DNA of 16,742 nt, taken from contig CAMPIO010000077.1 of the NCBI GenBank assembly GCA_946886405.1, positions 1-16,742 on the forward strand, in the 5' to 3' direction. Shown here one piece after another: positions 9,628 to 16,742 of this stretch. Both the position numbers and the translations under genes were made by a program. Source of the stretch: an uncultured Pseudoxanthomonas sp. GTDB lineage: Bacteria; Pseudomonadota; Gammaproteobacteria; Xanthomonadales; Xanthomonadaceae. The notes under the pieces were generated by a model that searched no databases, was not told the DNA's origin, and saw only the letters and a program-made list of their open reading frames with translations. Every line of letters begins with the position of its first letter. The stretch's first letter is position 1.

Positions 9628-12600
9628 TTGGTTTCCAGCTGGATCCTGCTGTTGGTGTCGGTCGGCTATGCCGCGCTGCTGTTCGGCGTGGCATGGTGGG
9701 GCGATCGCCGCCCCATGTACCCGGACCGCCCCTGGCTGCGCCCCGTGGTCTACAGCCTGGCGCTGGCGGTGTACTGCTCGTCGTGGACGTTCTACGGCGC
9801 GGTCGGCAGCGCCGTGCGCAACGGCCTGGGCTATCTGCCGATCTACCTGGGCCCGCTCCTGTTGCTGCTGTTCGGCTGGCGCATCATCGAACGGCTGGCG
9901 CTGATCGCGCGCAGCGAGAACACCGTTTCCATCGCCGACTTCATTTCGTCCCGTTACGGCCGCTCGCGACGGCTGGCCGCGCTGGTCACGGTGATCGCGC
10001 TGATCGGCGTGGTGCCGTATCTCGCCCTCCAGTACAAGGCCGTGGCGATGAGCCTGAGCGTGCTGAGCGGCGAAGGCGGCGACAGTACGCATGGCTTCTT
10101 CACCGACCCGGCGCTGTATGTCGCGCTGCTGATGGCGTTGTTCGCCGCCCTGTTCGGCACGCGCCAGGTCGATGCCACCGAACACCACCACGGCATGATG
10201 CTGGCGATCTCGCTGGAATCGGTGGTCAAGCTGGTGGCGATGATCGCGGTGGGCGTGTTCGCCTACCTGTGGCTGGATGACAACGCCTTCCGCGTCACCG
10301 ATTCGGCGCGCACGCTGTTCGAGAACGCGCCGCCGGTGGGTTTCATCGCGCAGACGCTACTCGGCTTCCTGGCCATCGTCTGCCTGCCGCGCCAGTTCCA
10401 CGTCGCCGTCGTCGAATGCAGCGACGTCGGCGACATCCGCAAGGCACGCTGGCTGTTCGGCGGCTACCTGGTGCTGTTTTCGCTGATGATCATTCCGGTG
10501 GCGGCTGCCGGTGCGTCGCTGTTCGGCGGCACCAGCGTGGCGGACGACAGCTACGTGCTTGCACTGCCGCTCGCAGAGGGCCGCACCGCGCTGGCGATCA
10601 TCGCGTACGTCGGCGGCTTCTCCGCCGCGACAGGCATGGTGATCGTGGCCAGCATCGCGCTGGCGACGATGGTCAGCAACGACCTGATCATGCCCGTGCT
10701 GCTGCGGCGCGGCTGGGCGGACCACCACGCCGAGGCCGACGTCGCTTCGCGCGTCCTGTGGATCCGCCGCGTCGCGATCCTGCTGTTGGCACTGACGGCC
10801 TATACCTACTACCGCAGCAGCAGCAACGACAGCACGCTGGCGTCGTACGGCCTGATGGCGTTCGCCGCCGTCGCGCAGTTCGCGCCCGGCCTGATCGGCG
10901 GACTGTACTGGCGCGGCGCCAGTCGACGCGGCGTCGAAGCCGGCATGGTGCTCGGCTTCGCCACCTGGATCTATACGCTGCTGCTGCCGACGATGACGCA
11001 GGCCGGATGGTTCGACCTGCACTGGCTGCACGACGGCCCGTTCGGCATCCGCTGGCTTCGTCCGCAGCAGCTGTTCGGCCTGAGCGGCTGGGACACGCTG
11101 ACCCACGGCACGTTCTGGTCGCTGCTGGTCAACACGGGCACGATGATGATCGTCTCTGCGCGTTCGCGCCCCGGCGTGGACGAGCGCCTGCGCGCTGCGC
11201 CGTTCCTCGACCCCTATGCGCAGCGCCCCGCGCTCGTGGCGGGCGAGTGGCCTGGCAGCGTGCGCATCGGCGATCTGCGCACGCTGGCCGAGCGCGTGGT
11301 CGGCGAGCGCCATGCGCGACGCGCGTTCGCCGAGCAGGCACAGCTGCTGGAACGGGAACTGCAACCCAACGCCCCTGCGGATCGTGCGTGGGTGCAGTTC
11401 ACCGAACGCCTGCTGGCTGCCGCCATCGGCGCGGCGTCCGCGCGCATCGTGCTGACCAGCGTGCTGCGCGGATCGGGCATGGAACTGGGCGAAGTGGTGG
11501 CGGTGCTCGACCAGGCGGGGCAGGAACTGCGCTTCAACCGCGAGATCCTGTCGACCACGCTGGAGAACATCAGCGCCGGCGTCAGCGTCGTCGATCCCGA
11601 CATGCGATTGGTGGCGTGGAATCGCCGCTACCAGCAGATGTTCGGTTATCCCGATGGCATGCTCTATGTCGGCCGCCCGGTGGCCGACCTGATCCGCTAC
11701 AACGCCGAGCGCGGCGAACTGGGCGACGGCGACATCGACGCGCAGATCAACAAGCGCATCCGCTACATGCGCGCTGGCTCGCCGCACATCTTCGAGCGTG
11801 TGCGCGCCGATGGCCAGGTCATCGAGATGCGCGGCCAGCCCCTGCCCGGCGGTGGCTATGTGACCAGCTACAACGACATCACCGATTTCAAGCACGCCGA
11901 GGCGCTGCTGCTGGAGACCAACGAGACACTGGAACAGCGCGTGGCCGAGCGCAGCGAGGCGGCGGAACACGCGCAGCAGTCGCGTACGCGCTTCCTCGCC
12001 GCGATCAGCCACGACGTGCTGCAACCGTTGAATGCCGCGCGCCTGTTCGTCAGCGCCTTGCGCGACAGCGAGCAGGGCGCCGACGCGCAGGCACAGGAGC
12101 GCCAGCACCTGGCGGAGCGGGTCGATGCATCCTTGCGCGCGGCCGAGGAACTGCTGGATGGCCTGCTCGATGTGTCGCGCCTGGATGCAGGCGGGCTGCA
12201 GACGCAGATCACCGATTTCGACGCCGGTGAACTGCTGCGCGAGCTCGCGGCGCAGTACGCGCCGGTCGCGGCGGGTCGCGGCCTGAAGCTGCGCGTGCAT
12301 GCACGTGCGATACCGGTGCGCAGCGACCGCCGCCTGCTGCGCCGCGTGCTGCAGAACTTCCTCGCCAATGCCCTGCGTTACACGCGCGAGGGCCGCATCG
12401 TGATCGGCATGCGCGTAAATGGCGAGCGGATCGTGCTGCAGGTGTGGGACACCGGCCCCGGCATTCCCGAAAACCACATGCGTCAGATCTACGACGAATT
12501 CCACCGGTACCAGCAGCCTTTCGACTGGGGCGAACGCGGACTGGGGCTCGGCCTGTCGATCTGCCAGCGCATCTCGCGCCTGCTGCAACATGAGCTGGAT

Positions 12601-13095
12601 GCGCGCAGCAAGGTCGATCGCGGCAGCATGTTCTCCATCGTCGTGCCACGCGGCGCCAGCATTGTCGAACGGCGCGTCCGTCGCTCCACCCTGGGCAGCG
12701 ACTCGCTCGCCGGCCTTCGCGTGCTGTGCGTGGACAACGATCGCGAAATCATCGACGGCATGCAGGCCCTGCTCGGCCGCTGGCAGGTGGATGTCATCAC
12801 CGCGACGACCGTCGACGAAGCACTGGAGAAGATCACCGAAGGTCCGACCGTGATGCTGGTGGACTACCATCTGCACGACCGCCTCGACGGCCTGGCCACC
12901 CTCGACGCGCTGCGCGCCGCCAGCCCCGGCCCCATCGCGGGCGCCCTGCTTACCGCCGACGGCCGCGACGAACTCAAACGCGAAGCCCGCGAACGCGGCT
13001 ACCGCCTGCTGACCAAGCCAGTAAAGCCCGCCTCGCTACGCGCCTTCCTCGCCGCGCACCACGTGCCGGACGCACTGCCAGCATCCGATAACTGA
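9628..13095 (+). CDS. hybrid sensor histidine kinase with N-terminal SSS transporter domain (CrbS/CbrA-like)
   Basis: This 1155-residue inner-membrane protein joins a sodium:solute-symporter-like domain (about 1-500, roughly thirteen hydrophobic helices) to a signalling module. A PAS domain lies at about 642-760 (ISAGVSVVDPDMRLVAWNRR). The dimerisation H-box is AAISHDVLQPLN with phospho-acceptor His795. The ATPase motifs are N910/N914, DTGPGIP (941-947) and GLGLGLS (971-977). A C-terminal receiver has D1036/D1038, phospho-acceptor Asp1079 and Lys1130. CrbS proteins with this layout control acetate or carbon use, so a similar sensory or transport role is inferred. The start is TTG at 9628, chosen because GGGAGAGG lies just upstream and it retains the first helix. 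The next Met (residue 30) would cut that helix. No response-regulator partner is adjacent. Confidence 0.9.
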   Translation: MVSSWILLLVSVGYAALLFGVAWWGDRRPMYPDRPWLRPVVYSLALAVYCSSWTFYGAVGSAVRNGLGYLPIYLGPLLLLLFGWRIIERLALIARSENTVSIADFISSRYGRSRRLAALVTVIALIGVVPYLALQYKAVAMSLSVLSGEGGDSTHGFFTDPALYVALLMALFAALFGTRQVDATEHHHGMMLAISLESVVKLVAMIAVGVFAYLWLDDNAFRVTDSARTLFENAPPVGFIAQTLLGFLAIVCLPRQFHVAVVECSDVGDIRKARWLFGGYLVLFSLMIIPVAAAGASLFGGTSVADDSYVLALPLAEGRTALAIIAYVGGFSAATGMVIVASIALATMVSNDLIMPVLLRRGWADHHAEADVASRVLWIRRVAILLLALTAYTYYRSSSNDSTLASYGLMAFAAVAQFAPGLIGGLYWRGASRRGVEAGMVLGFATWIYTLLLPTMTQAGWFDLHWLHDGPFGIRWLRPQQLFGLSGWDTLTHGTFWSLLVNTGTMMIVSARSRPGVDERLRAAPFLDPYAQRPALVAGEWPGSVRIGDLRTLAERVVGERHARRAFAEQAQLLERELQPNAPADRAWVQFTERLLAAAIGAASARIVLTSVLRGSGMELGEVVAVLDQAGQELRFNREILSTTLENISAGVSVVDPDMRLVAWNRRYQQMFGYPDGMLYVGRPVADLIRYNAERGELGDGDIDAQINKRIRYMRAGSPHIFERVRADGQVIEMRGQPLPGGGYVTSYNDITDFKHAEALLLETNETLEQRVAERSEAAEHAQQSRTRFLAAISHDVLQPLNAARLFVSALRDSEQGADAQAQERQHLAERVDASLRAAEELLDGLLDVSRLDAGGLQTQITDFDAGELLRELAAQYAPVAAGRGLKLRVHARAIPVRSDRRLLRRVLQNFLANALRYTREGRIVIGMRVNGERIVLQVWDTGPGIPENHMRQIYDEFHRYQQPFDWGERGLGLGLSICQRISRLLQHELDARSKVDRGSMFSIVVPRGASIVERRVRRSTLGSDSLAGLRVLCVDNDREIIDGMQALLGRWQVDVITATTVDEALEKITEGPTVMLVDYHLHDRLDGLATLDALRAASPGPIAGALLTADGRDELKREARERGYRLLTKPVKPASLRAFLAAHHVPDALPASDN

Positions 13096-13164
13096 ATCGA
13101 GCCACGCGAGCACCGACTACCGGCCGCGACGTTGAAGCCGTGAATGACGGCGAGAACGCCACCC

Positions 13165-13204
13165 ATGCCGGGCAGTGTCCGGCATCTGATGTCCCCCACA
13201 TCAG
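13165..13204 (+). terminator. two adjacent perfect hairpins downstream of the kinase gene
   Basis: The first stem is ATGCCGG (13165-13171) with CCGGCAT (13179-13185). It abuts a second stem, CTGATGT (13186-13192) with ACATCAG (13198-13204), around a CCCCC loop. Both stems are perfect. No T-run follows, so transcription termination for the kinase mRNA is only a reasonable guess. Confidence 0.4.
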
Positions 13205-13335
13205 CCTGCTATCACCCCATGCAGGCCCTGATAATCCACCGAGCCCTCGTTGGAGCCGGATAATGCGGGATGCACAGGCATGCAGATCGGGACGCCAAGG
13301 GAGCGAAGCGGTTGTTTGGCAGGGCATTACCCTCG

Positions 13336-13364
13336 TTGACGCCTCTTCGTCTTGGCTGAATACT
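13336..13364 (+). promoter_or_regulatory. candidate cassette promoter (Pc-like) reading into the array
   Basis: TTGACG (13336-13341) and AATACT (13359-13364) are separated by 17 bp, and the -10 ends 35 bp before the first recombination point (13399/13400). The -35 matches consensus at five of six positions and the -10 at four of six. The orientation is correct for driving the cassette genes. In known integrons Pc lies in intI or attI. Here it sits in the integrase-free leader. Confidence 0.5.
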
Positions 13365-13366
13365 CG

Positions 13367-13405
13367 GCGTTATTACCCCTTATTGGGGTCTACTAGGTGT
13401 TATGC
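13367..13405 (+). other. left boundary of the array: attI-like site or degenerate attC
   Basis: The first core site GTTATGC (13399-13405) is preceded by a small hairpin, ACCCC (13375-13379) with GGGGT (13385-13389), and then by CTACTAGGT. This resembles the right half of the downstream attC sites (GCGGGT...TTCAGGT-GTTA), but the left R'' core and most of the inverted repeat are missing. It could be an attI, or an attC relic left by deletion. Confidence 0.45.
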
Positions 13406-13776
13406 GTGGGTTGGCATGTTGGTGTCGTCGGCTTCGGTGACACCTTGGTTTTTCACTCGATCACGGCTTCGGCATTGGTCGGTCGCTGACCTAGCTCGGT
13501 CTCTCGCGTCTCCCGCCTTCGCTTCAGTCGGCTTCGGATGCAGCAGGTTCGCGCCGCTCGGTTAGCTGATGCAGGACCAACTCCATGCGGGCGGCGCCAC
13601 TGGCTTCGGCCTTACAAGCACGGGCCACTCACTGCCCCTGGCTCCATCCCGTGATTTCCTCTTCGCCTACTGTTCTCGGCTAAGATCGCTTCAACAGTCC
13701 GGGGTACCTTCTACCCAGGCTGCATAACCACTCGTTCAAGCCGAACCCGCTTCGCGGGTCGGCTTAACTCAAGGTG
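13400..13776 (+). mobile_element. cassette 1: ORF-less cassette, family copy A
   Basis: This 377-bp unit begins TTATGC and ends in its own attC (13722-13782). No convincing ORF is present. A 49-codon frame (13416-13565) exists but is interrupted in the related cassette 5. The motif GGCTTCGG occurs four times (near 13430, 13465, 13529 and 13612). It is the same length as cassette 3 and differs from it at nine positions: 13440, 13452, 13463, 13506, 13693, 13694, 13710, 13716 and 13731. The role is unknown. A structured RNA, a promoter or spacer element, or a decayed gene are all possible. Confidence 0.85.
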
Positions 13777-13782
13777 TTAGGC
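13722..13782 (+). other. attC site 1 (61 bp)
   Basis: R'' is GCATAAC (13722-13728) and R' is GTTAGGC (13776-13782). The stem AAGCCG-A-ACCCGC pairs with GCGGGT-CGGCTT around a TTC loop, leaving one extrahelical A (a T on the recombining bottom strand). The spacer arms CCACTCGTTC and AACTCAAGGT are shared only with attC 3. Confidence 0.93.
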
Positions 13783-13789
13783 GCCACAA

Positions 13790-14191
13790 GTGACTATCTC
13801 GCCCTTCAATAAGACTCTCAGCGCGGCATGCCTTGTAGGCGGACTAATTGTCACCTGCACCGTTACTGCCGTGGCGCGATCTGCCCTTGAGTACACGTAC
13901 CCCAACAACTCTGGCGCCGGCCCGCTGCACGCCTTCGTGCAGCTCCCAATCTATCTGCTGCTCTCAGCCTTAGTCGCACTGGCTGTTCTTGCCTACGCTC
14001 GCGTCAAGAGATTTCCTGCGATATCAGCGCGCAGTAACGCCCTGCTGGGGGCACTGTGTGGCTTCGCCTCTGCGCTCCAACTAGCTACGCGTTGGGCATC
14101 AGAGCTTCCGGCACTCCTAGTGATTGTAGGCATCACTCTTGGCATCGCAGTATTCTTTCGGTCACGTATAGGCGCCCGGGTTGGCGCCTAA
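13790..14191 (+). CDS. cassette 2 protein: small membrane protein of unknown function
   Basis: This 133-residue protein is the only ORF of the 463-bp cassette 2 (13777-14239). I do not recognise the family. It has four hydrophobic segments, at about residues 9-30, 49-71, 83-99 and 106-123, with short basic loops (RVKR at 71-74, RSRIGAR at 124-130), so it is an integral membrane protein. The start is GTG, eight bases after the GTTAGGC core, with no clear Shine-Dalgarno sequence. Expression would then depend on an upstream promoter and possibly translational read-in. The stop codon TAA is part of the R'' core GCCTAAC, so the protein does not extend into attC. Composition is less GC-rich than the core genome. 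A 4-TM transporter subunit or an immunity-like protein cannot be distinguished. Confidence 0.72.
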   Translation: MTISPFNKTLSAACLVGGLIVTCTVTAVARSALEYTYPNNSGAGPLHAFVQLPIYLLLSALVALAVLAYARVKRFPAISARSNALLGALCGFASALQLATRWASELPALLVIVGITLGIAVFFRSRIGARVGA

Positions 14192-14245
14192 CAGTTCATT
14201 CAAGCCGAACCCGCTTCGCGGGTCGGCTTAATTCTGGTGTTATGC
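14186..14245 (+). other. attC site 2 (60 bp)
   Basis: R'' is GCCTAAC (14186-14192) and R' is GTTATGC (14239-14245). It has the same AAGCCGAACCCGC/GCGGGTCGGCTT hairpin with TTC loop. The spacers are AGTTCATTC and AATTCTGGT. Confidence 0.93.
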
Positions 14246-14616
14246 GTGGGTTGGCATGTTGGTGTCGTCGGCTTCGGTGGCACCTTGGTTTCTCACTCGA
14301 TCGCGGCTTCGGCATTGGTCGGTCGCTGACCTAGCTCGGTCTCTCACGTCTCCCGCCTTCGCTTCAGTCGGCTTCGGATGCAGCAGGTTCGCGCCGCTCG
14401 GTTAGCTGATGCAGGACCAACTCCATGCGGGCGGCGCCACTGGCTTCGGCCTTACAAGCACGGGCCACTCACTGCCCCTGGCTCCATCCCGTGATTTCCT
14501 CTTCGCCTACTGTTCTCGGCTAAGATCGCTTCGGCAGTCCGGGGTACCTACTACCTAGGCTGCATAACCAATCGTTCAAGCCGAACCCGCTTCGCGGGTC
14601 GGCTTAACTCAAGGTG
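14240..14616 (+). mobile_element. cassette 3: ORF-less cassette, family copy B (near-duplicate of cassette 1)
   Basis: This 377-bp unit aligns without gaps to cassette 1 at an offset of 840 bp and differs at nine positions. It lacks a convincing ORF. It has the same four GGCTTCGG motifs and the same GTTATGC/GCATAAC core pair. The nine substitutions mean it is not a very recent copy of its neighbour. Either an old duplication or two separate captures of family members would fit. Confidence 0.87.
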
Positions 14617-14622
14617 TTAGAG
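14562..14622 (+). other. attC site 3 (61 bp)
   Basis: R'' is GCATAAC (14562-14568) and R' is GTTAGAG (14616-14622). The inner hairpin and the right spacer AACTCAAGGT are identical to attC 1. The left spacer differs by one base (CAATCG against CACTCG). Confidence 0.93.
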
Positions 14623-14627
14623 GGCTG

Positions 14628-15065
14628 ATGACGGAGTTTGCGCTAGTCGAGCCAAGGGCGATTCGGATCGATACCGGCCACGCCCCGGATCTGACTGTCT
14701 CGGTGGAGTCCATTCAATCCAATGCTGACGGTCTCTGCATCACGATCAAATCCGAGCTATGGCGTGCTAAGGCTGTCTTCGACTCTATTTGGGGCTTCCG
14801 TGTCTTGACGGAGTTGGACCTCACAGAGTTCTGGTCCAAGGTGACGCTCAAGGACGGCTGGCTGTTCAAGGTTCAGGCCGGGGGATGGTTAGACTTGGAG
14901 CTAAGTCGCCCTCACTTCACGTCAGGTCGCTTGTATCAGCTACACGAGTACCTGATCGTCGGTGCAAACGACTGTGTATCGGTCCTATCTGAGCGTCCGC
15001 CCAGCATCACCGGTACGCCCTCTAACAATTCATTCAAGCCGAACCCGCTTCGCGGGTCGGCTTAA
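14628..15065 (+). CDS. cassette 4 protein: conserved soluble hypothetical protein with attC-encoded tail
   Basis: This 145-residue protein is the sole ORF of the 457-bp cassette 4 (14617-15073). The body (1-127) is soluble and aromatic-rich, with SELWRAKAVFDSIWGFRVL (42-60), EFW, GWLFKVQAGGWLDLE (77-91) and HEYLIVGANDCVSVLSERPP (106-125). I recall similar proteins annotated as hypothetical in many proteobacteria, but I cannot name a function. The frame continues into attC 4, adding NNSFKPNPLRGSA as residues 133-145. The ATG lies five bases after the GTTAGAG core, whose AGAGGG could act as a very closely spaced ribosome-binding site. The C-terminal half can be aligned by eye with the cassette 6 protein. 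Confidence 0.78.
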   Translation: MTEFALVEPRAIRIDTGHAPDLTVSVESIQSNADGLCITIKSELWRAKAVFDSIWGFRVLTELDLTEFWSKVTLKDGWLFKVQAGGWLDLELSRPHFTSGRLYQLHEYLIVGANDCVSVLSERPPSITGTPSNNSFKPNPLRGSA

Positions 15066-15079
15066 TTCAAGCGTTATGC
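15020..15079 (+). other. attC site 4 (60 bp)
   Basis: R'' is CTCTAAC (15020-15026), the reverse complement of the cassette's GTTAGAG. R' is GTTATGC (15073-15079). The hairpin is standard with a TTC loop, and the spacers are AATTCATTC and AATTCAAGC. It encodes the last residues of the cassette 4 protein. Confidence 0.92.
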
Positions 15080-15439
15080 GTGGGCGGGTGTGTTGGTGTT
15101 GTCGGCTTCGGTGATGCCGCGATTTCAGCAGCGTCGCGGGCTTCGGCACTGATCGGCCGCTGACGCAGCTGAGTTGCTCACGTCTCCTCGCTTCGCTTCA
15201 ATCGGCTTCGGATGCATTGCGTTCGCGCCGCTCGGGACAAGGATGACTTCATGACTTTCGGACCGGCGTCGCTGTCGGCTTCGGTCTTTATGGGCCCCAC
15301 CCTGCTACGGGCTGGCGGCGAGTGATTTCCTGCTCCCGGATGTTCCGACCCCGTTGCAGGTTGCTGGCTTCGGGCTTACCTTGGCGCATAACAGTTCATT
15401 CAAGCCGAACCCGCTTCGCGGGTCGGCTTAATTCAGGTG
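15074..15439 (+). mobile_element. cassette 5: ORF-less cassette, diverged family copy C
   Basis: This 366-bp unit is clearly homologous to cassettes 1 and 3 but diverged. Conserved blocks include TTATGCGTGGG at the start, TCGGCTTCGGTGA, TCGGCTTCGGATGCA, GTTCGCGCCGCTCGG and GTGATTTCCT, separated by diverged segments with insertions and deletions. GGCTTCGG occurs five times, near 15103, 15139, 15202, 15278 and 15367. The 49-codon frame of cassettes 1 and 3 meets an early TGA here, which argues against a conserved peptide. It has the same GTTATGC/GCATAAC core pair as the other two members. Confidence 0.82.
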
Positions 15440-15445
15440 TTAGGC
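15386..15445 (+). other. attC site 5 (60 bp)
   Basis: R'' is GCATAAC (15386-15392) and R' is GTTAGGC (15439-15445). The hairpin is standard, and the spacers are AGTTCATTC and AATTCAGGT. Confidence 0.93.
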
Positions 15446-15449
15446 CCGC

Positions 15450-15869
15450 ATGGCAGAAATCTCCGCTCTTGAAGAATTGGCAGCCTGCGAGGACGTTGGG
15501 TTCGGCTCGCTTCGAGAAGAGCCGGGGTTCGAGTTGTGCATTGTTGTTGAGGCAACCGATCCAGATCGAGTGTTTGAGATTCGCTGGTCTAGCTATATCA
15601 GTTATGCCGTTCGTAGCGAGCACTTCTGCCAGTGGGACAGTGACGAGGTCTGGGAGGGCAAGCATGTATTTCGGGTTTACTCCAAGTCCAAGTTCATAGA
15701 CTTCGTTGACCGCGGCACTTTTGCCACTGCCGATTTCCCTGGTCCATTCAAGCACTATCAGATACAGAGTCTTTACCAAATCGTAGACGTGGCATCGTTG
15801 GAGGCGCCGCAAGTCCGCGTTAGCGGGCCTAACAATTCATTCAAGCCGAACCCGCATCAGGTTCGCTAA
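15450..15869 (+). CDS. cassette 6 protein: soluble hypothetical protein, distantly like the cassette 4 protein
   Basis: This 139-residue protein is the sole plus-strand ORF of the 496-bp cassette 6 (15440-15935). The body (1-126) is acidic and aromatic-rich: FELCIVVEATDPDRVFEIRW (27-46), EGKHVFRVYSKSKFIDF (69-85), KHYQIQSLYQIVDVASLEAP (101-120). The order of these elements and the spacing to the C-terminus parallel the cassette 4 protein, suggesting a shared fold. Function is unknown. The ATG lies four bases after the GTTAGGC core, with no Shine-Dalgarno sequence. The frame runs into the unusual attC 6, adding NNSFKPNPHQVR, a tail altered by the enlarged loop. The opposite strand is also open over this interval (15396-15812) but lacks the orientation and start placement of cassette genes. 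Confidence 0.72.
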   Translation: MAEISALEELAACEDVGFGSLREEPGFELCIVVEATDPDRVFEIRWSSYISYAVRSEHFCQWDSDEVWEGKHVFRVYSKSKFIDFVDRGTFATADFPGPFKHYQIQSLYQIVDVASLEAPQVRVSGPNNSFKPNPHQVR

Positions 15870-15941
15870 CTTCGGGTCGTTCTGGGTACTATCGGCTTCG
15901 GTGCCTATCCATGGCGGGTCGGCTTAATTCAGGCGTTAGGC
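15827..15941 (+). other. attC site 6 (115 bp) with a 58-nt enlarged loop
   Basis: R'' is GCCTAAC (15827-15833) and R' is GTTAGGC (15935-15941). The arms AAGCCGAACCCGC (15843-15855) and GCGGGTCGGCTT (15914-15925) are intact, but the usual 3-nt TTC loop is replaced by 58 nt (15856-15913). The inserted sequence contains ATCGGCTTCGGTGCC, closely resembling the motif of the ORF-less cassettes. attC sites with long variable terminal structures are known elsewhere, but this is the only one here. Confidence 0.9.
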
Positions 15942-15946
15942 CTCAT

Positions 15947-16264
15947 ATGAGCCACCCTCATACGTTCACATCATGGCCCTTTCCAGATGCAGTCAACACT
16001 GCTTCATTCACAACAAGGCATGTGCTTGACGGACGCAAACCGGTTGTCGAGGTCTATCACGATCACGATGGAGACTGGCAGTTCCTCTGCGGGACAACGA
16101 CAGATGTTGCAGACCTTAAACTCGTCTGTATGGGATGTATGCTTGAGCGTGATCCTTCGATCGCAGACTTGGCAGACCTACCCTGCGGCTGGTCGGCCAC
16201 CCGCGACGGTCTGCGAGGCAACTGGACGCGAGACGCCTTCGAGGATAGCGACGATGAGGCCTAA
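15947..16264 (+). CDS. cassette 7 protein: small soluble conserved hypothetical protein
   Basis: This 105-residue protein is the only ORF of the 377-bp cassette 7 (15936-16312). Visible features are VYHDHDGDWQFLCGTTTD (about 38-55), the pair LVCMGCM (59-65), DPSIADLADLPCGWSATRD and an acidic end, EDSDDEA. I recall similar sequences as uncharacterised conserved proteins in several phyla, without a named function. The start at 15947 is chosen because it lies inside the cassette, five bases past the GTTAGGC core. The frame is also open from 15911, but that start lies within attC 6. The stop TAA is part of the R'' core GCCTAAC, so no attC tail is added. The C-x-x-C at 61-64 could bind metal but is unpaired. 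Confidence 0.75.
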   Translation: MSHPHTFTSWPFPDAVNTASFTTRHVLDGRKPVVEVYHDHDGDWQFLCGTTTDVADLKLVCMGCMLERDPSIADLADLPCGWSATRDGLRGNWTRDAFEDSDDEA

Positions 16265-16318
16265 CAAATCATTCAAGCCGAACCCGCTTCGCGGGTCGGC
16301 TTAATTCTGGTGTTAGAC
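16259..16318 (+). other. attC site 7 (60 bp)
   Basis: R'' is GCCTAAC (16259-16265) and R' is GTTAGAC (16312-16318). The hairpin is standard with a TTC loop, and the spacers are AAATCATTC and AATTCTGGT. Confidence 0.93.
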
Positions 16319-16332
16319 CGCACAGGAGAGAT

Positions 16333-16716
16333 ATGCAAGCCAAGACGCCCTTCGCAAGTCGACTAGCCGCGTTGTTTCTGGCGGTTCTGGTTGCCATGCA
16401 CCTTCTGGTTACACTCGACCTGTTCTTCAAGTTCTTTCCGGCAACGCCTGAGTTCCTAGCCATGTGGGGGATCTCCGCCTGGGCAAAGCTGCTCTGGGCC
16501 GCGACCTGTACTGTCGGAACCGTTGCAGTGCTCTTGCTTTATCGTCGCGCGTGGTTGGGTTTCTTCGCATCAATCTTGTTTTGTGCAGGCTTGTATTTCG
16601 CCAGCGTGCAATTGTGGGGCGCCGTGAAAGGTGGCTTCTGGCTAGCTGTCGGAGTGACGGCTCTTGCATTGGTAGGCGCGGTGCGGTCTAACAATTCATT
16701 CAAGCCGAACCGGTAG
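16333..16716 (+). CDS. cassette 8 protein: small four-helix membrane protein of unknown function
   Basis: This 127-residue protein is the ORF of the last, incomplete cassette (from 16313). It has four strongly hydrophobic segments at about residues 10-30, 48-70, 74-95 and 101-117, with RR at 71-72 between helices two and three, so it is an inner-membrane protein. I do not recognise the family. Unlike most cassette genes here it has a good ribosome-binding site, AGGAGAG (16324-16330), just before the ATG, so it can be translated independently. The frame enters attC 8 and adds NNSFKPNR before the stop. The tail is shorter than that of cassette 4 because this attC departs from the consensus after CCGAACC. 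Confidence 0.75.
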   Translation: MQAKTPFASRLAALFLAVLVAMHLLVTLDLFFKFFPATPEFLAMWGISAWAKLLWAATCTVGTVAVLLLYRRAWLGFFASILFCAGLYFASVQLWGAVKGGFWLAVGVTALALVGAVRSNNSFKPNR

Positions 16717-16742
16717 TTCCTACGGTTTGGTGGACACCTTGA
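16686..16742 (+). other. attC site 8, divergent and cut by the window edge
   Basis: R'' is GTCTAAC (16686-16692), the reverse complement of cassette 8's GTTAGAC core, followed by the standard AATTCATTCAAGCCGAACC. The next bases differ from all other sites. They form a new hairpin, GTAG-TTC-CTAC, bounded by CCGAACC and GGTTTGG, then TGGACACCTTGA. The R' core is not within the window. This is either a variant attC or an attC disrupted by an insertion. Confidence 0.7.

Follow-up and report, generated by a model that had tools for sequence, protein, structure and literature searches.

A kinase-side cassette array with its own attI site

The window analysed here, a 16,742-nt stretch of chromosomal Pseudoxanthomonas DNA (88.6% DNA identity to L001 over 11.5 kb), ends in the cassette array of an integron; throughout, G labels denote genomes and L labels DNA stretches of relatives. 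A hybrid histidine kinase gene is followed by about 300 bp and then by the array, which runs off the end of the window. An earlier sequence-only reading gave this distance correctly, but took the interval as empty and placed the start of the array feature at 13400. That start is too late, as the interval holds a predicted attI, a Pc-like cassette promoter and the 5' end of an integrase gene (intI), which begin from 13201. The features, with the left neighbour last, are:

13239-13201, minus strand: intI 5'-end stub, VDYQGLHGVIAG and then a stop, with GTG replacing ATG
13336-13364, plus strand: Pc-like cassette promoter TTGACG-17-AATACT, the sole promoter-like site in 13096-13460
13375-13405, plus strand: predicted attI, an ACCCC-TTATT-GGGGT hairpin, then CTACTAGGT and the core G|TTATGC
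13400-13776, plus strand: cassette 1, gene-less family; attC 13722-13782
13777-14239, plus strand: cassette 2, open reading frame (ORF) 13790-14191 (133 residues), no Pfam family over cut-off; attC 14186-14245
14240-14616, plus strand: cassette 3, gene-less family, 97.5% identical to cassette 1; attC 14562-14622
14617-15073, plus strand: cassette 4, ORF 14628-15065 (145 residues), no Pfam family; attC 15020-15079
15074-15439, plus strand: cassette 5, gene-less family; attC 15386-15445
15440-15935, plus strand: cassette 6, ORF 15450-15869 (139 residues), no Pfam family; enlarged attC 15827-15941
15936-16312, plus strand: cassette 7, ORF to 16264 (within the cassette from ATG 15947), no Pfam family; attC 16259-16318
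16313-16742, plus strand: cassette 8, ORF 16333-16716 (127 residues), no Pfam family; attC from 16686, cut
9628-13095, plus strand: hybrid histidine kinase gene (PAS, HisKA, HATPase and receiver domains by Pfam)

Judged by its sequence, the module between the kinase gene and cassette 1 is an attI with a Pc-like promoter. The attI exchange point is predicted between 13399 and 13400, and seven relatives (L082, L084-L089; alignment A4, with three of five G021 sites omitted) have the same hairpin/CTACTAGGT/core module at their intI locus, where it separates intI from cassette 1. The promoter-like site matches the consensus at 9 of 12 positions, with 0.2 such sites expected. On the opposite strand, the stub stands 96 nt from the -35 box; for ten intact intI genes, whose products begin M[DE]YQ, this distance is 95-97 nt, and similar stubs are found 93-96 nt from that box in G001, G003, G004 and G032. 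Aligned to intI starts, the window stub scores 55 (best of 200 shuffles 52), and those of G003 and G032 score 81 and 78 (shuffle maxima 49 and 53, respectively). By tblastn alone no intI is detected in the window, the stub included, nor left of the array in the 4 kb searched upstream, the right end of the array lying outside the window; the absence of an integrase on the left flank, as first read, is thus borne out.

A terminator-like hairpin with a T run is also present at the start of cassette 1 (13421-13444), about 20 nt past attI, where shuffles give an expectation of 0.4. It could stop transcription from Pc; in the near-copy of this cassette, cassette 3, the T run is interrupted.

The array itself proved to be as first described, with seven complete attC sites in one orientation (plus strand) and paired cores, and an eighth site, from 16686, cut by the window end. 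A motif parse finds at most one mismatch between R' and R'' in all seven closed cassettes, and by eye the pairs are exact. Folded as single-stranded DNA, the bottom strands of six sites form hairpins with z-scores of -4.06 to -5.27 (0/200 shuffles as good), and the enlarged attC of cassette 6 reaches -2.27, with 6 of 200 shuffles as good. No Rfam family was matched at gathering score. The enlarged site (115 nt) has full-length matches of 91-94% in L001 (18120-18236) and L007 (17772-17891), and its loop holds a GGCTTCGG word, like the gene-less cassettes.

A cluster of attC sites lacking an integron integrase (CALIN) has at least two attC sites and no neighbouring integrase gene; the array has seven complete sites and no such gene on its left side, its right end being beyond the window. 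Of a complete integron it has the attI at the array start and, in the place of intI next to attI, a 12-codon stub only. Under the label that software commonly applies, the array is a CALIN, as had been proposed; in anatomy it is an integron platform short of its integrase only, one of a family-wide set.

The site is inherited within the genus

The kinase gene is a conserved left neighbour outside the integron proper, its protein showing 95-97% identity in eight Pseudoxanthomonas records, including P. japonensis and P. mexicana. A survey of 38 Pseudoxanthomonas genomes with a hairpin-plus-core pattern gave 35 attI sites in 15 of them, and the same kinase gene followed by attI and an array occurs in 12 other genomes (G001-G008, G022, G027, G031, G032), indicating that the site is inherited. 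The sequence-only reading had offered, besides a CALIN, a relocated piece of a chromosomal integron at an unusual locus, to be checked by comparison downstream of the kinase gene in relatives; that comparison, with the same kinase-attI-array order in 12 genomes, argues against relocation. The absence of ilvD had been taken as a further sign of an odd locus. In Xanthomonas, intI of the chromosomal integron does lie beside ilvD, according to the available text of PMC12444791, but the absence of ilvD here says little, because in G031 intI (L145 3-2024) adjoins a ComEC-like competence gene and the DNA upstream of it can be aligned to further intI loci in the genus. That an importer of single-stranded DNA adjoins an enzyme recombining folded single strands may be more than coincidence.

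An assembly artefact, or an intI at the far right end of the array, might be suspected, given that the window ends within the array, that similar attC sites break assemblies and that the contigs of many relatives end there. With the kinase-attI junction recurring in 12 other genomes, and with G027 and G031 holding both platforms on one contig (3.8 and 4.2 Mb, with the platforms 2.1 and 1.5 Mb apart) and their intI of this type at the platform away from the kinase, we find this scarcely credible.

Eleven of the 12 kinase-side relatives have one full-length intI at another locus; that of G022 adjoins an attI missed by the pattern and found by the survey model described below. A whole-genome search with TIGR02249 returned one intI over the cut-off in G001-G004, G006-G008, G012, G021, G022, G024, G031, G032 and G035, two in G009 and G027, and none in G005, G010, G011 and G013. 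In G009 and G027 the second integron integrase is the lower-scoring one, at 373 and 378 bits, and has a 337-residue open frame in both (G009:C18:1686-2624, L094; G027:C1:980090-981028, L178).

One full-length intI among several attI sites

Across the 35 attI sites of the genus set, a full-length intI is found at 13, a remnant at 4, a weak match at 1 and none at 17. To the wider family we applied a covariance model of the module (R1; E 1e-4 or better), which matched 93 of 297 genomes, 40 of these with at least two matches and up to five; R1 E-values are rough, and hits were checked by attC-like sites downstream. Such sites lie downstream of 36 and upstream of 10 of the 46 sites without full intI that had at least 600 nt, as compared with 22 and 6 of the 29 full-intI sites; an opposite-strand control (37/46) is uninformative because attC is nearly palindromic.

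In the family set, 82 sites read in 36 genomes comprise 30 with a full-length intI, 16 with a remnant (two of them with short upstream sequence), 5 with a weak match and 31 with none. This set takes in 9 of the 53 single-hit genomes and leaves out six multi-hit genomes (G044, G094, G105, G165, G234, G282) as well as one hit each of G074, G171, G220 and G280. Exactly one full-intI site is seen in 23 of the 27 genomes with at least two read sites, none in four (G112, G125, G171 and G280, the last with an intI matched in pieces), and two in no genome. When the 13 such genomes of the pattern search are included, 35 of 40 have one, five have none (G005 being added) and still none has two. Taking both sets together, 18 of 20 remnants start next to attI, no further in than residue 70 of the query frame, which is what would be left if the decay of an integron copy set in at the far end of intI; those of G005:C17 and G280:C6 start elsewhere. 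The remnant of G032:C4, and part of those of G003:C23 and G009:C20:8653, match translated leader and not intI codons.

Such decay raises the question of whether the kinase-side site is a dead relic, that is, a degraded integron with a frozen array, in which decay has yet to reach attI and the promoter. The reduction of intI to a stub with a stop would fit, as would G005, which keeps two attI sites without a full intI, and G002, whose kinase-side array yields no parsable cassettes. In 13 kinase-side modules, however, TTGACG is kept in all 13 and AATACT in 11 while spacers vary, and the 13 first cassettes are all unlike: no two are alike over 60 nt, the best pair reaching 0.73, and the closest, those of the window and G003, both belong to the gene-less family. 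A frozen array also sits poorly with the likeness of attI sites within genomes and with nearly identical cassettes found on different platforms within a genome (both below), and we consider a relic unlikely.

attI sites are more alike, and cassettes more often shared, within genomes

Ten genomes have one site on the kinase side and another beside intI; for these, attI cores differ by a mean distance of 3.0 within a genome, as compared with 6.9 for orthologues and 6.9 for cross pairs (permutation p 5e-5); in seven genomes thinned of close kin, 4 of 5040 permutations were as good. Over 35 genomes the distance is 4.2 within a genome versus 10.9, with 0 of 20,000 permutations as good (four doubtful survey hits, two of G022 and one each of G009 and G065, were dropped beforehand, and the window was left out). 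The attI pairs of G021 are alike beyond the exchange point, upstream of it, over 342 bp at 97.7% and 268 bp at 95.5%, a likeness that strand exchange by the integrase (IntI) would not produce and that fits gene conversion. The attI copies may thus be kept alike either by gene conversion or, for the core only, by shared selection for binding one IntI.

Cassettes tell of exchange as well. Motif parsing gave 355 cassettes from 26 array pieces, several cut by contig ends and with none from the kinase side of G002. With the threshold set at about 97% identity over 95% of length, 20 of 4,582 pairs that span two platforms of the same genome qualify (9 in G027, 8 in G007 and 3 in G031), compared with 3 of 53,581 between genomes; single arrays contain a further 14. 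The cassette that follows is unrelated in 19 of the 20 (0.37-0.44, against a background of 0.41), indicating that single cassettes moved; in the remaining pair it is identical.

Homologous recombination between similar repeats could likewise exchange cassettes and attI, leaving IntI uninvolved at the platforms without intI. Both the likeness of the G021 attI pairs upstream of the exchange point and the one shared pair with an identical next cassette are what it would give. The single-cassette movement seen in the other 19 pairs is not, nor are array starts that fall exactly on the attI core, and we hold recombination of this kind to be decidedly improbable.

Probable feeding of the platform in trans

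We think it probable that the window array is an integron platform whose intI has decayed, which has kept its attI and Pc, and which is fed in trans by one IntI. A second or duplicate integron copy at the kinase site would have had its intI decay to about 12 codons, with attI and Pc staying in place. IntI from an intact locus elsewhere in the genome, which we infer for the window's own genome as well, would then bind the kinase-side attI and the folded attC strands, excising cassettes by attC x attC recombination on folded bottom strands and inserting them at 13399/13400 by attI x attC recombination. Pc would transcribe the first-landed cassettes, and one enzyme would thus feed two or more expression platforms per genome. 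Beyond the window, we lean, with somewhat less assurance, towards a distributed integron in which, in this family, one IntI commonly serves two to five attI/Pc platforms scattered along the chromosome with attI in concerted evolution, many CALINs regarded as debris belonging, as live platforms for expression, to one network.

Several observations weigh against a platform fed in this way. The source genome's own intI is not visible in the window, and the pattern of one intI plus platforms comes from relatives, among which G005 has a kinase-side attI and no intI over the cut-off. The stub is unclear in some relatives, its score being reached by 170 of 200 shuffles in G002, 12 in G001, 8 in G007 and 1 in G005. 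The attI permutation tests take no account of kinship, and a genome's own attI pair is closest or tied in just 21 of the 35 genomes; those of G132 and G074 are far from closest and, to a lesser degree, so are those of G004, G007, G022, G123 and G219. The 20 shared cassette pairs, finally, are non-independent, some sharing a member, and all come from G007, G027 and G031.

Gene-less cassettes and attC matches in plasmids

The gene-less family, marked by GGCTTCGG words that recur, far outnumbers every other among the parsed cassettes (28 of 355; the next family has 6). Its stretches in the window are 13399-13728, 14239-14568 and 15073-15392, and it is also found in L101, L147, L148, L151, L152, L155, L156, L160, L161 and L166-L168. 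A structured RNA was considered for these cassettes and rejected, single folds being no better than shuffles (z -0.70, 0.04). In alignment A2, which holds 25 of the 28 cassettes after near-duplicates were dropped, double changes occur in 5 of 38 pairs (shuffled mean 3.9, reached by 133 of 500), double-change cells number 19 versus 6.1 shuffled (0/500 as good), and 96.4% of cells are paired versus 93.7% shuffled. These weak signs are suggestive at most of paired structure, and we make no claim of a structured RNA. Some members carry long open antisense frames, and for these a coding role may be possible. Among the cassettes with genes, none of the five ORFs (cassettes 2, 4, 6, 7 and 8) matched a Pfam family over the cut-off.

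The attC sites of the window also match integron resistance-cassette DNA in plasmid records, at 83-94% identity over 9-11% of the query among the 20 matches listed. These short matches, in 3,815 plasmid records, fall in clinical cassette regions (aac(6')-IIa, fosE, aadA11, aadB), in line with PMC8352920, in whose available text a good share of clinical resistance cassettes have attC sites of the Xanthomonadales type. A plasmid relative of the window was considered and dismissed, as the matches are short attC matches only and 0 records cover 80% of the query.

Significance and comparison with known systems

If many CALINs keep attI and Pc and use a distant integrase, the integron would be a network instead of a single locus; more cassettes would stand beside a promoter at once, and distant arrays could exchange genes. 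The present case allows a direct test of whether the loss of its integrase kills an integron. Several attI/Pc platforms per genome under one IntI were not found described in the literature searched, a scope with subscription literature largely outside it. According to the accessible part of PMC9024848, IntegronFinder 2.0 does not detect attI outside class 1 integrons, and CALINs have been proposed there as degraded integrons.

With the sedentary chromosomal integron of Xanthomonas, as far as its published description is available, the window has in common an attI, a cassette promoter (putative in the window), a uniform attC array and cassettes mostly of unknown function. It differs in that its intI is only a stub, at another locus, and in that the genomes concerned have more than one attI. 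With CALINs it shares an attC array without a neighbouring intI (PMC9024848, PMC12444791). Those of Xanthomonas are described in conserved positions, with mobilisation in trans (PMC12444791), and no attI is reported at them in the available text, whereas the array of the window still has its attI, together with a Pc-like promoter and the stub of intI. Two further cases are of a different kind, as far as the accessible portions of the papers tell: the attenuated attI sites inside cassettes of mobile integrons (PMC12901181) are a separate phenomenon, and relocation of the Vibrio superintegron moved the whole unit (PMC11551772). A precedent for a CALIN with its own attI is found in the Shewanella prophage M16-3, where, from what the available text of PMC9892861 describes, one such CALIN lies beside a complete integron. 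There, the setting is one inactive prophage; here, it is a chromosomal locus present in many species, in genomes that have several platforms, with a putative promoter and remnants of intI, attI sites that resemble one another and shared cassettes.

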